IMG/VR virus record: IMGVR_UViG_3300028666_000012
Location: 1 to 40,817 of that record
Source: a virus
Length of the DNA: 40,817 nt
Strand: one strand, 5' to 3'
Positions 3,307 through 23,091 of this stretch are shown in pieces (the stretch's first letter is position 1; each line of letters starts with the position of its first letter). The notes under the pieces were generated by a model, which saw nothing but the letters and a program-made list of their open reading frames with translations, was not told where the DNA came from and did no database searches. A program made the position numbers and the translations under genes.

Positions 3307-3544
3307 TTAATCCCTCATTTCTACAATGAGAATCCTACGGGTTCAGGCTCGTAGGACTTTCAATGTAAATCCGCTTTACATTGAAATCAAATAATTGCTA
3401 TAAAGAAATTTCGCAAGTCCTGCGTTATGGACAAATCAGCGTAAGAAAGCATCGCACCTTTCATCAAGATATGATCGAAAATACGCGTAGTTAGGTTCGC
3501 ATACCGATCATCATATCATATTAATCTCATTTAATGAGGTTATC
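3307..3544 (+). other. Hairpin-rich leader of the major capsid gene
   Basis: This 238-nt stretch has no convincing gene. It holds two strong hairpins: TCCTACG/CGTAGGA (3333-3339 with 3350-3356) and a perfect 12-bp stem (3358-3369 with 3375-3386) with a TCCGC loop. Neither is followed by a run of T, so they do not look like intrinsic terminators. A small CTCAT/ATGAG hairpin (3527-3540 region) sits next to the capsid ribosome site GAGG. The region may be a 5' untranslated leader controlling capsid mRNA stability or processing. Confidence 0.55.
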
Positions 3545-5487
3545 ATGCAGATTACCAATACAGGGAATTTAGGCCCTATGATTTTGCAGAGCTTAGCTCC
3601 GGCGATGTTATATGTTCCTACGCCCACAATGAATTACATTACTATCTGTGACAAAGTTTCTATGCCTGCTAATGGCGGAACTACTTGCAGATTTATGCGC
3701 CCACGCGCACTACAACCTCCAACGATTCAACTTGGTAACTCGGGAATTGACCCCCCAGCTCAAGTTCCTCAGAGGGATATCATAGATGCACAAATGGCAT
3801 TCTTCGGTAATTATGCCAGTGCCGAAGATGACTTGTCTCAATATAGACTGGCTGCATAATCAACGAGCAAGTTATCCTGCAAGACCAAGAAGGAGTCTTG
3901 GCATGGGTATCTGAAAGACTCGCTGTTGCAATGAGACAAGCCGAGGATTAAGATTAAGTCCTCGATAAACCTTTTCTGATTGACTTGGAAGTCTAAGTTG
4001 AATCAGATTTGTGTCATAATTAATATGATACAAATATGAGTCAATATGACGACAGGGGGCAAGATTATGAATGATCAAATTATGAAACATTTTGAAATGA
4101 AACTTTTATGGGAAAATAAAAGGATCATGAATGAAAAAGGTGATATAATTGATGTTTATATTCAGCCTGAGAGAACAAGCGAAAAGGATCAATCATCTGG
4201 AAAAACCGGAAAGTTGATATGCGATGTTCCGAACACTCCAACGAAAGGGAGTGAATCTAGCAGAAATGACTAGGTCACGTCGAAAGACGGGGTAACAGGT
4301 TGTTAATTTTACGTGATTACATCGTCTCCGCAGCGTCAGAAATCAACGCAGGGGGTGGTTCTAATGCTGATAATCCCACAAATTTGGGTGTATCAGATTT
4401 TAGTTTAGTTGCTACGACTTTGGATACTAACAATGCCTACAAATTTATGTCAGGTATTGAAGGAATGGATAGATTCGGTAAAGTGTGTGCCGAATTAAAA
4501 CTTTGGGTAATTGACTTGGAGTGCCTTGCTGCATGATAAAAGAAAAATTCGCTCTAATTGGTGGAGATATACATAAACTAATTAGAATAAAGAAATATGA
4601 CCAGTGGGATAAATATTCTTGGAGAGTTCATTATAAAGGAAATTTATATTTTGTTCCTGTAAAAGATGAATGCAAACATGATTTTGAACCTAAAACAACT
4701 GGTTATATTCGAAGAAGAGTTTTTAATAATAAAATGTAGAAGGTTAACAAGGGGCAAGATTATGAAAGAAGAATTGATAGATTATGTAATGGGAAAAGCT
4801 GATCAATATTATTCGGATGATTTCCCTATATATTCTATAGAAGTATGGATAAGAGAATTCTTTGATCAATATCAGCCTGAGAGATCAAACCCTGAAGAAG
4901 CTAGAAAACCATTAAAAGAAGATATAATAAAACTTTTAGATAGAAAGTTTATAAATTCTCCAAAAACTAGCTTATGCGATGATCCGAACTCGGAATATAA
5001 ATAAAATCCGAGAAGTAGGCAGAAATGACCTACTCGCCTCTATGAGGTGGTAACAGAATTGACAGGCCCAGTAAGAAGTGCATACTTCATGTTGTCTAAT
5101 ACAGAATTGCAGACAGATTTCGACGCCTTGACTGGTAGCGGATTCTTGTCTCAATGGAACTATCCTACAAATGCGAGCGCATTGACTTCAGAATACGGTT
5201 CTGTATTTAACATCCGTATTTTGACAAGCTCTGAGGCTCCTGTAGCTCGTGGTGCTAGTGCTAATGGTAACGACGTGTATTACAATACAGTTGTTGGAAA
5301 ACAAGCCGTTACGCATATTAACCAAGATGGTTATAGCATGAATTTGATTTATAGAGACCCATACTACAGTGGTATGTTGGCCCAAAATGCGACTCTTGCA
5401 GTTAAGTTTGCGCAAGCGCAAGCAATCACTCAAGATACTGCTATCCGAAACCTTTTAAGCACTCGCTTAGCGAACTTAAACCCATAG
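3545..5487 (+). CDS. Major capsid protein, N4-gp56-like, split gene (join of four pieces)
   Basis: Coding pieces are 3545-3814, 3853-3948, 4303-4479 and 5062-5487, giving 322 residues when joined. The joined product reads smoothly across junctions (NY/CIINEQV, AED/LILRDYIV, DRFG/TGPVRS). It fits the N4-gp56 family pattern as I recall it, including the conserved R-D-(Y/V)-(I/L) helix after the second junction and Gly-rich loops. Junctions 2 and 3 are removed as group I-like introns; junction 1 is a 38-nt hairpin insert whose removal is unexplained. Read without processing, the gene stops at 3859, after only 104 residues. The start has GAGG about 6 nt upstream. The gene lies between scaffold and decoration genes. 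Exact placement of junction 1 is uncertain by a few bases, but all placements remove 38 nt. Confidence 0.85.
3815..3852 (+). other. 38-nt hairpin insert interrupting the major capsid frame
   Basis: The insert begins with GCCAGT and ends with ACTGGC, a perfect 6-bp inverted repeat, and the flanks ATTAT and ATAAT can extend the stem imperfectly. Its length is not a multiple of three, and reading through it reaches TAA at 3857-3859. Removing 38 nt joins TAT to TGC and restores the capsid frame. It is far too short for a group I or II intron, lacks a guide sequence for its own 5' edge, and has no slippery heptamer. Possible readings are a translational bypass signal, a nuclease/ligase-processed insert, an intron relic, or a lesion in this isolate. 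Confidence 0.6.
3949..4302 (+). ncRNA. Group I-like self-splicing intron in capsid gene (354 nt)
   Basis: The upstream exon ends CGAGGAT. Inside the intron at 3958-3964 lies GTCCTCG, pairing perfectly with it except for the expected U-G wobble at the splice site (P1). The bases before that guide (ATTAA) pair with the start of the downstream exon (TTAAT), giving P10. The intron ends in G at 4302. Splicing restores the capsid frame. It shares boxes with the intron at 4480-5061: GGGGCAAGATTATGAA, CAGCCTGAGAGA, ATGCGATG-T-TCCGAAC, a hairpin with loop CAGAAATGA, and a final GGTAACAG. I could not assign P3-P7 confidently, so the subgroup is open. Confidence 0.82.
4067..4273 (+). CDS. Small intron-encoded ORF (68 aa), function unknown
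   Basis: The ATG follows the conserved intron box GGGGCAAG, which doubles as a plausible ribosome site. The N-terminal half (MNDQIMKHFEMKLLWENKR) looks like a protein. The C-terminal half, from IQPERTSEKDQ onward, is read through the intron's conserved RNA core, so it is probably constrained by RNA structure. It has none of the HNH, GIY-YIG, LAGLIDADG or His-Cys motifs of homing endonucleases. It may be a decayed endonuclease remnant, a small splicing accessory protein, or no gene at all. Confidence 0.4.
   Translation: MNDQIMKHFEMKLLWENKRIMNEKGDIIDVYIQPERTSEKDQSSGKTGKLICDVPNTPTKGSESSRND
4533..4739 (+). CDS. Intron-encoded hypothetical protein (68 aa)
   Basis: This ORF lies entirely within the second capsid intron, before its conserved core, in the part that makes this intron longer than the first. 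The protein (MIKEKFALIGGDIHKLIR start) is basic, with Trp/Tyr-rich strands and one Cys-x-His pair (ECKHDF), ending with Arg-rich GYIRRRVF. The composition could fit an RNA- or DNA-binding protein. No homing endonuclease signature is visible and no strong ribosome site precedes the ATG. I do not recognise it. Confidence 0.45.
   Translation: MIKEKFALIGGDIHKLIRIKKYDQWDKYSWRVHYKGNLYFVPVKDECKHDFEPKTTGYIRRRVFNNKM
4762..5004 (+). CDS. Intron-encoded hypothetical protein (80 aa)
   Basis: The ATG follows GGGGCAAG, exactly as in the ORF of the first intron. The protein is acidic and helical (MKEELIDYVMGKADQYYSDD). Near residue 43 it has YQPERSN, equivalent to IQPERTS in the first intron's ORF because both are read through the same conserved RNA box. 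The remainder, ENDING in SEYK, runs into the 3' RNA core. No nuclease motif is visible. The shared start context in two diverged introns is the best argument that these ORFs are translated. Confidence 0.42.
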   Translation: MKEELIDYVMGKADQYYSDDFPIYSIEVWIREFFDQYQPERSNPEEARKPLKEDIIKLLDRKFINSPKTSLCDDPNSEYK

Positions 5488-5497
5488 GAGGCGTATC

Positions 5498-6658
5498 ATG
5501 GCTGAATATTCAAGAATTGCAAAAGGACATGTAACTACCTTAACAGGTGGTGGAACAGCTCCAATTAATTTACCATTTCAACCTCAAACGGTAAAATGGT
5601 GGAACCTTACAGCTTCAACTTCTGGTGGTGCAACCGGATATGTGACTAAAGGTTATTGGGATGTTTCAATGGGTCAAGGAGCTGGTGTTTATGATGTAGT
5701 TACAGTTACTACATTAGCTCAAGTAGCAGCATCTACTTTAACAGGTGGGATTACTACTTATGCTGGTGGATTATCACTCCAATATGGTCCTCAAGTTCAA
5801 ATTGTTTCTATTTCAAAAGCAAGTCCTGCTTCTGTTATAGCAACTGGACACGGTTTGGTTTCAGGAGATGTTGTAGTTTTAAGTGGATTGTATCAGTCAA
5901 CAACAACAGGTATGCAGCAAATTGCAGGAATGCCATTTACTGTAACCGTTAGTGATGCTAATACATTCACTATTCCTTGGGATACATCAGGTTCTAATTA
6001 TACTGCTTTGAGTGCATCTCCAACAGGAGCATTTCTCAAAAAAGTTCTTTATCCTTATTTGTATTTTCCAGGTACAGCAATAATTAGTGCAATTACTGCA
6101 CCCAATGGAACAACAATTCCAACAGGTACAGTTTCAGTTGACACAACAACTGCTCATAATTTTGTTGTAGGTCAAGAAGTAGCTTTTAGAATTCCTCCTA
6201 TTTGGGGATCTTATCAGCTAAATTCTTTACCAGATTTGTTAATCCCAGGTTCTCCAATTTATGGATATGTTGTTTCAGTGACTGACTATAATACAGTTAT
6301 TGTTAAGATTGCGGCATCATCTTCATTTACAGCATTTGTACCTAACCAAGTATTTGCATCATTCCCAGGGGAATTTTTTCCTCAGATCGTTGCAGTTGGT
6401 GACGTTAATACTGGTGGAGTTCAGATTAGTGTTGGTTCCCCATTGTATCCATCTCCTTATACAGTAGCATTAGGTGATGGTAATGCTTTGACAAATGGTA
6501 TTTACGCAAATCGTGCAAGTACTATTAATGGACCAGCTATTCAGGGTGCTTATGTGAATAACACAAGCCAAGGTTTCATGTTTGGTACTACAGTAGCTCC
6601 AACAGCTGCTCAAGTAATCTACTATGAAGCTATGATTCCTGATCTTAGTATTAATTAG
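5498..6658 (+). CDS. Head/virion structural protein with FCCH-like beta module (386 aa)
   Basis: AGGAG lies close before the ATG, 10 nt after the capsid stop. The protein is rich in Gly, Thr, Ser and Val and almost all beta, as expected for a decoration or spike protein. Around residues 105-160 it contains ATGHGLVSGDVVVLSG followed by an N-x-FTI strand, the layout of the small beta module annotated in phages as FCCH-like (after the E1 ubiquitin-activating enzyme domain). The second half (about 195-320) is repeated as a separate gene immediately downstream (6725-7147). Cytoplasmic early roles are unlikely given its late position. The exact virion location is unknown. Confidence 0.7.
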   Translation: MAEYSRIAKGHVTTLTGGGTAPINLPFQPQTVKWWNLTASTSGGATGYVTKGYWDVSMGQGAGVYDVVTVTTLAQVAASTLTGGITTYAGGLSLQYGPQVQIVSISKASPASVIATGHGLVSGDVVVLSGLYQSTTTGMQQIAGMPFTVTVSDANTFTIPWDTSGSNYTALSASPTGAFLKKVLYPYLYFPGTAIISAITAPNGTTIPTGTVSVDTTTAHNFVVGQEVAFRIPPIWGSYQLNSLPDLLIPGSPIYGYVVSVTDYNTVIVKIAASSSFTAFVPNQVFASFPGEFFPQIVAVGDVNTGGVQISVGSPLYPSPYTVALGDGNALTNGIYANRASTINGPAIQGAYVNNTSQGFMFGTTVAPTAAQVIYYEAMIPDLSIN

Positions 6659-22555: not shown

Positions 22556-22795
22556 TCATTCTTTTACCATAGGAATAGGAAACCAGTACAAAACTCTATC
22601 TTGAATTGGAGTTAAAGAATCACATTCATAGTCTTCTTTATGTGTAAAAGAATGAAACTTGCATTTTCTAATCTTTTCATCAGAAAATATTTCTCCATGA
22701 TGAATTGTTTCATCTCCTGTCATGAAAAATATATCTGTATTTCTTGGAGGTTCTTCTTTCCAAATATTTTTCCAATAAAATTCCTGGTCAATCAT
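22556..22795 (-). CDS. DUF551-like small protein (79 aa)
   Basis: The layout follows DUF551: W-K-N-I-W with PPRNTDIFF near the N-terminus, a central variable region, and YWFPIPMVKE at the end in place of YW-x-PLP. Its start overlaps the end of the upstream gene by 4 nt (ATGA-type coupling). One of four members of this family in the genome. Function unknown. Confidence 0.66.
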   Translation of the reverse strand: MIDQEFYWKNIWKEEPPRNTDIFFMTGDETIHHGEIFSDEKIRKCKFHSFTHKEDYECDSLTPIQDRVLYWFPIPMVKE

Positions 22796-23091
22796 AATTT
22801 ACTGCATCCAGTACAACAAGTTTCTTTAGTCAATATAGATTCAGGATTCTCGCAAAATCTGCACGTTTGATTAGGTGAATAATGCGACATCTCCTCATCA
22901 TTTCTTCTTTGCATATCCCAAATCAAATACTCTCTCCACTTGAACTTATCTACTTTGTTTTCATGTCCTATTTTTCTAGTTTCTTCTTCGAATATAGAAA
23001 ACCCTTTCCAAGCTAGAGCAGAGAATGCTATCCAGTGTTCATTTAGATTATATTCCCAAGTAGTTGGGACATCTTTTGGATTTTTCATCAT
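22792..23091 (-). CDS. Hypothetical protein with C-terminal zinc-ribbon cysteines (99 aa)
   Basis: The first 70 residues are Trp-rich and soluble (YNLNEHWIAFSALAWKGFSIF). The last 30 carry CRFC and CCTGC, a CxxC...CxxC arrangement typical of a treble-clef or ribbon zinc site. The start overlaps the preceding stop (ATGATG/TGA). Not recognised as a named family. Confidence 0.62.
   Translation of the reverse strand: MMKNPKDVPTTWEYNLNEHWIAFSALAWKGFSIFEEETRKIGHENKVDKFKWREYLIWDMQRRNDEEMSHYSPNQTCRFCENPESILTKETCCTGCSKL

Follow-up and report, generated by a model that had tools for sequence, protein, structure and literature searches.

The uncultured virus of IMG/VR record IMGVR_UViG_3300028666_000012 is represented here by 40,817 nucleotides (positions 1 to 40,817 of the record; hereafter, the window), which encode a P22-like portal, a terminase, and a capsid protein whose gene is interrupted three times. 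We consider it probable that this gene holds two complete group I introns plus one coreless intron, that the latter is excised by the core of the next intron, and that the products of unspliced message are degron-tagged.

Three insertions in the capsid gene

The joined capsid protein has 322 residues, and a match to phrog_1357 (E 2.4e-14) provides its identity. Its gene lies on the plus strand, as do all features given below, and consists of exon 1 (3545-3808, residues 1-88), exon 2 (3847-3948, residues 89-122), exon 3 (4303-4479, residues 123-181) and exon 4 (5062-5487, residues 182-322 plus the stop codon). Exon 1 was delimited by tblastn and spliced alignment to 80 relatives, and the other exons by alignment to relatives. 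None of the isolate phages matched the capsid, and a profile search against solved structures gave no match (best E 0.93). An AlphaFold model of the uninterrupted capsid of a relative (L001) had a mean predicted local distance difference test score of 27.9, with no usable fold.

The initial annotation had proposed splicing at 3948/4303 and 4479/5062, and both points hold. The exons end in T3948 and T4479, the inserts end in G4302 and G5061, and splicing at both larger gaps restores one capsid frame. The paired regions P1 and P10 that had been predicted are present, with CGAGGAT/GTCCTCG (P1) and ATTAA/TTAAT (P10) at the 3948 join, and TTCGGT/GCCGAA (P1) and TGT/ACA (P10) at the 4479 join. The capsid protein is common to 80 IMG/VR loci, and because 67 of these align as one piece (the other 13 as two) and give the same joined protein, the joins 3948|4303 and 4479|5062 are right; intron-free homologues had been named beforehand as the sequences able to contradict them. 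The P1 pairings also exceed chance. When at least 5 Watson-Crick pairs plus a U.G pair and a loop of 6-12 were demanded, 32 of the 12,688 T positions on the window's plus strand had such a P1, and within 3500-5500 there were only three sites: 3808, 3948 and 4479.

As judged from their sequence, the two larger inserts are group I introns. Intron 1 (3949-4302, site 122, 354 nt) and intron 2 (4480-5061, site 181, 582 nt) each have P1 with U.G at the splice site, a 3' terminal G, and a P3-P7 pseudoknot with P4 and P8, the match in intron 2 being partial. The parts could be read off the sequence. Intron 1 has P10 at 3953-3957, the internal guide sequence at 3958-3964, P3 at 3970-3976/4181-4187 and P7 at 4173-4177/4225-4229; intron 2 has P10 at 4486-4488, the internal guide sequence at 4489-4494 and P7 at 4883-4887/4980-4984.

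Searched at its gathering score, a practical cut-off and no structural definition, Rfam gave no match for the window or for any of 17 related loci, and the score set for RF00028 was not reached. Permissive settings returned six unrelated weak matches in the window region, none in L013, and a sub-threshold group I match in L083 (18.2 bits against 50) among other weak ones. Because Rfam gives the larger inserts no score, 22 short introns of relatives were aligned and a core model, R1, was built from the alignment. The P3-P7 pseudoknot, P4, P5 and P8 are paired in 95.1% of its cells; double changes occur in 20 of 26 pairs, a level that 0 of 500 shuffles reach, and slid controls give 34-40%. In covariance-model searches of the kind suggested in the initial annotation, R1 matches intron 1 at 4086-4237 (E 9e-5), intron 2 has a weak, partial match at 4499-4591 (E 0.041), and the Rfam group I model matches neither.

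Both introns contain a small open reading frame (ORF), at 4067-4273 in intron 1 and 4763-5004 in intron 2, preceded by AGGGG-like ribosome sites. Where they cross the intron core, the two have YQPER-like and ICD-PN-like stretches in common. Neither has a Pfam match, and the second has one weak PHROG match.

That the capsid gene contains two group I introns, as first annotated, is correct for the larger inserts, but a third, coreless intron had been overlooked. It occupies the smaller gap, is 38 nt long (3809-3846, site 88), sits between FFG and TGCIINEQ in the capsid, and is missing from uninterrupted homologues. An internal guide at 3816-3826 comprises CCAGT, which pairs with ACTGG at 3847-3851 (P10), followed by GCCGAA, which pairs with TTCGGT at 3803-3808 (P1) with U.G at the splice site, and the insert ends in G. 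A joint scan for P1, P10 and G found one plus-strand site in the whole window, this mini-intron, and none on the minus strand. The insert has no P3-P9 core of its own, for which 38 nt leaves no room, and it is therefore classed as a coreless derivative and not as a full group I member. Sites 88 and 181 (window 3809 and 4480) have the same target (TTCGGT|AC-GG) and the same guide (GCCGAA), an indication that one was seeded from the other.

Coreless elements and their downstream introns

A spliced aligner was run on 229 sequences, the window included, and yielded 155 unique capsid genes, 75 without an insert and 80 with at least one called insert. This sample was drawn by protein similarity and patterns, among the matches listed, and its frequencies are not population frequencies. 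The initial view that two introns in one structural gene are uncommon does not apply to this phage family. Up to six inserts occur in one capsid gene (L093, L222 and others) and the family as a whole has about 30 insertion sites, which is unusually dense for a single gene of a phage. The called inserts of at least 190 nt are preceded by T in 127 of 130 cases and end in G in all 130, although the aligner itself rewarded T and G. Among these 130 full-length inserts are six long elements without a core and another six whose boundaries are doubtful (L161, L192 and L223 at 81; L105 at 49; L144 and L216 at 123), the latter being dropped for the P10 and tag statistics.

Forty-four capsid elements lack a core but possess P1, P10 and a final G: 27 at site 88, in the window and 26 other unique capsid genes, 14 at site 104 and 3 at site 114. 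Thirty-eight are 30-75 nt long and six, all at site 104, are 325-987 nt. With the further sets described below, coreless elements are found at four capsid sites (88, 91, 104, 114) and two portal sites (residues 36 and 7). At site 88, P1 covaries, with TTCGGT/GCCGAA in 21 elements, TTTGGT/GCCAAA in 6 and no discordant combination, and 26 of 27 elements have the matching base at the variable P10 position. P10 is also longer in coreless elements than in core introns (5.2 versus 2.6 Watson-Crick pairs, n=44 versus 118, p=5e-15).

Of the six long site-104 elements, none has an R1 core match, and the guide lies about 24 nt from the 3' end. Five are 950-987 nt and have LAGLIDADG-like motifs, read by eye with no library scan; the sixth (L170) is 325 nt with a shorter frame. 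ORFs of homing-endonuclease size lie in the P1 loop of the coreless site-104 intron in L161, L192, L194, L201, L223 and L234, where the ribozyme is in a separate downstream intron of about 200 nt. In these ORFs LAGLIDADG-like motifs were read by eye, in L234 over part of the frame.

Bypass elements of the T4 gene 60 type have matching take-off and landing codons. That ribosomes skip the mini-intron in this way, and that it is not spliced at all, is highly unlikely. An insert of tens of nucleotides, an in-frame stop and structures around the gap would all suit a bypass, but the take-off codon would be GGT and site-88 inserts end in TAG, AAG, TTG, GCG, ACG and similar; since none ends in GGT, there is no matching landing codon, and bypass was rejected for the mini-introns on this ground. 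Nor are the universal T before and G at the end of the insert, guide covariation with both exons, or dependence on a downstream intron features of bypass, and the site-104 forms reach 987 nt.

Co-occurrence with a downstream intron is strict. Among 149 unique capsid genes covering residues 60-165, a core-sized intron is present at sites 89-150 in 37 of the 37 with a coreless element, as compared to 10 of the 112 without one (Fisher 3.7e-26). A core-sized intron is moreover the next downstream element in all 61 cases with sequence: 42 of 42 in the capsid survey, 6 of 6 in a set of contigs from bacterial genome bins (genome_contigs) and 13 of 13 in the portal gene. Two capsid elements, L092 (114) and L223 (104), fall outside the 42 in that the stretch ends first. 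The coreless-core pairs take nine arrangements in the capsid survey, plus 91 to 120 in the genome_contigs set, and R1 detects a core in 35 of the 42 next introns (34 at E<0.01, plus that of the window).

The genome_contigs set is separate and was not picked for inserts, and 6 of its 7 loci have a coreless element, including the new site 91. The bin labels (L233-L239) are Nitrospiraceae, Bacteroidales, Chlamydiia, Simkania, Patescibacteria, Pseudomonadota and Peregrinibacteria, and are weak evidence on the host. The portal set comprises 20 loci fetched by pattern for inserts of 24-53 nt, with L248 left unresolved and L241 placed two residues off. In 12 of the 20, a coreless element at residue 36 precedes an intron of 201-228 nt at residue 50, and in the L221 portal gene one at residue 7 precedes an intron at residue 25. 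One portal mini-intron sequence is identical in L094, L101 and L247, and another in L243, L245 and L252.

Alternatively, the mini-intron might be spliced in trans by whatever group I ribozyme is present in the cell, such as excised intron RNA, with the neighboring intron a linked passenger. P1 and P10 would suffice for a trans substrate, and engineered trans-excision has been described (PMC4094466). We regard this as unlikely, however, in that a core-sized intron always comes next and the putative docking helix described below targets the exon abutting that very intron. It is harder still to credit that mini-introns are dead remnants in defective or misassembled genomes. They do look like internal deletions of a group I intron, and the data all come from metagenomes, but the other site-88 carriers alone come from different metagenomes and have covarying guides, and both the docking helix and the read-through endings are maintained across different lengths.

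Putative docking helix, read-through endings and predicted excision

The mini-intron of the window can pair with the exon that precedes intron 1. The 5' strand of this helix, designated Px, is CTTGTCTCA in the mini-intron (3832-3840), and the 3' strand is TGAGACAAG in exon 2 (3932-3940), whose end lies 8 nt before the splice site of intron 1 and which adjoins the stretch forming P1 of intron 1. The spacing from guide to Px is 2-5 nt as a rule, similar to the short joint of full-length introns. For 28 of 37 mini-introns the best helix falls 7-14 nt upstream of the next splice site, and for 29 of 37 it beats shuffled tails (p<=0.05). When the true next site was ranked against other sites of the same gene, it came first in 31 of 42 cases, second in 8 and third in 3, with a mean of 18.4 versus 10.2. 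Px also covaries. In each of the four classes with enough members for testing, the score falls when partners are swapped (p 0.002, 0.0005, 0.001 and 0/2000), and two-sided changes are seen between CTCATT/AATGAG (L084) and CTCATC/GATGAG (L088) and between GAACC/GGTTC (L082) and GATCC/GGATC (L107). At the six loci from genome bins, the distance from the end of Px to the next splice site is 7-10 nt (shuffle p <=0.11), and in the portal gene the pairing is kept by eight different mini-intron tails.

A second property concerns what is translated when splicing does not occur. The ssrA proteolysis tag, a C-terminal ...LAA or ...LVA, is added by transfer-messenger RNA (tmRNA). In-frame translation of unspliced mRNA into the mini-intron gives the tail NYASAEDDLSQYRLAA and a stop (3809-3859), in which, as in some other mini-introns, the exon supplies the ending (...QYR-LAA), and read-through into intron 2 ends in ...DLECLAA, with the stop codon ending at 4536. 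Such tails resemble the ssrA tag in their C-terminal ...LAA or ...LVA, as in NEAQAEQYALAA of L160 and L168, and have the small hydrophobic C-terminus, -LAA or similar, of ssrA-type degrons; they differ in being intron-encoded and reached by read-through of unspliced mRNA, not added by tmRNA. An -AA or -VA ending precedes the first in-frame stop of 41 of the 44 coreless elements; among core introns that lie beyond residue 32 and do not follow a coreless element, 49 of 53 have it. It is found in 2 of the 42 core introns that come directly after a coreless element and in none of the 23 introns located at residue 32 or less, and the other two frames give 0 or 1 per group. These counts drop L142 (69, 81), L088 (216), L218 (190), L157 (191, 270) and L166 (173, 270) as aligner artefacts or contig-end fragments, as well as every insert located beyond residue 268. 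Most mini-introns of the portal set bring in a stop immediately, at residue 36, a position at which the fragment is short.

These endings might instead be a by-product of conserved intron core sequence, since in some introns the stop lies within a conserved core strand (GCAGCGTGA). This is quite unlikely, as the ending is also encoded in mini-intron P1 loops, in P2 regions and partly by exon bases, and is lost exactly where an upstream element supplies the tag or the product is short. The endings are in frame, group-specific and spelled by 36 codon sets, which is the pattern expected from selection for a tag on a truncated capsid. Truncated capsid from unspliced mRNA thus appears to be tagged for proteolysis; selection for the ending is read from the sequences themselves, and degradation would be its consequence.

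The most likely course of mini-intron excision, with respect to catalysis, order and docking, can be outlined from these comparisons. The mini-intron keeps what a group I substrate needs, namely a 5' splice site in P1, a guide that binds the 3' exon as well, and a terminal G. Px would join the mini-intron just past its guide to the exon stretch abutting P1 of intron 1, and would thereby place the mini-intron P1 where intron 1's own P1 meets its core. The mini-intron P1 may then replace that of intron 1 in the active site, with the strong P10 aligning the exons and the terminal G entering the G site, such that the intron 1 core would excise the mini-intron first. Its departure would destroy Px, and intron 1 would self-splice afterwards. 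Ribosomes on unspliced message would reach the in-frame stop after the ...LAA encoded in the mini-intron or intron, and the truncated, possibly assembly-poisoning capsid fragment would be degraded.

Several observations weigh against this interpretation. The evidence base is wholly comparative and all data are metagenomic, and co-inheritance of linked elements could explain part of the co-occurrence, though several site pairs and two genes show it. R1 finds nothing in 7 of the 42 next introns, all in insert-rich genes (L076, L079, L089, L091, L095, L096, L102), and has a probably spurious match at window 22705-22803 (E 0.0041). Px is not always strong: 8 of 37 fail the shuffle test and the best helices of 9 of 37 lie elsewhere, with a shorter helix present at the expected place in most of these. 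In L082, L107, L084, L088 and L100 a local or other helix outscores Px, which there has 5-7 pairs. L096 lacks P10 and is the sole misfit among the 27 site-88 elements. The three site-114 elements are untagged, and four core introns expected to have the tag are without one.

Relation to known splicing systems

Phage group I self-splicing introns, such as T4 td, have P1 with U.G, P10, a terminal G and a P3-P7 pseudoknot. The full-length introns described here are like them in all four features, and have P4, P5 and P8; the 38-nt element and its relatives differ in having P1, P10 and the terminal G only, with no core. We are inclined to regard the coreless elements, somewhat less firmly than the reading of the window itself, as a natural mobile class of phage group I introns whose excision would be carried out by the ribozyme of the following intron by way of a docking helix, and each of which has a guide of its own, in most cases an -LAA degron and in some a LAGLIDADG-type endonuclease.

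For a natural coreless insert tied to the next intron, the closest known systems are engineered spliceozymes and, by analogy, group III introns. Engineered group I ribozymes (trans-excision, spliceozymes) can remove introns of 64-100 nt from mRNA in trans (PMC4094466). A spliceozyme likewise uses a group I core to remove a core-free insert, with an extra pairing to position the splice site; here, in contrast, the guide is in the insert, the extra helix is made to the exon beside another intron's P1, and the arrangement is natural and in cis. The group III introns of Euglena chloroplasts, about 90-120 nt and degenerate (PMC4424553), are like the coreless elements in keeping only part of the parent structure. 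Group III introns are group II-derived, whereas the present elements are of group I, reside in phage and are tied to the next intron by covarying helices. In the sections consulted of a review of organellar introns (PMC8393795), which cover twintrons, side-by-side group I introns and trans-spliced group I introns, two units likewise cooperate or adjoin, but here one unit is coreless and a coding exon lies between them. Nothing like a coreless element paired to the next intron was found in those sections, and in the open-licence literature we found no report of natural coreless group I introns or of intron-encoded ssrA-like tags.

If the proposed mechanism is true, the mini-introns would represent the natural equivalent, among group I introns, of group III introns, in which the catalyst has been given up and a neighbor is relied on, and a small RNA would suffice to test the step from self-splicing introns to shared-catalyst introns. 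The -LAA tags encoded by the introns point to a way in which a parasitic intron can occupy an essential capsid gene and yet not poison assembly, and such tags offer a sequence signature from which phage introns may be recognized.

A different portal insert, of 48-53 nt, is found at residue 36, the site of the portal mini-introns, in seven loci (L240, L241, L157, L173, L206, L218, L244). It contains a hairpin of about 17 pairs that includes a stop (-30 to -35 kcal/mol in the six that were folded), has no P1 or P10, and is flanked by CGG and, in 5 of 7, CGN codons. The seven inserts resemble a translational bypass element.
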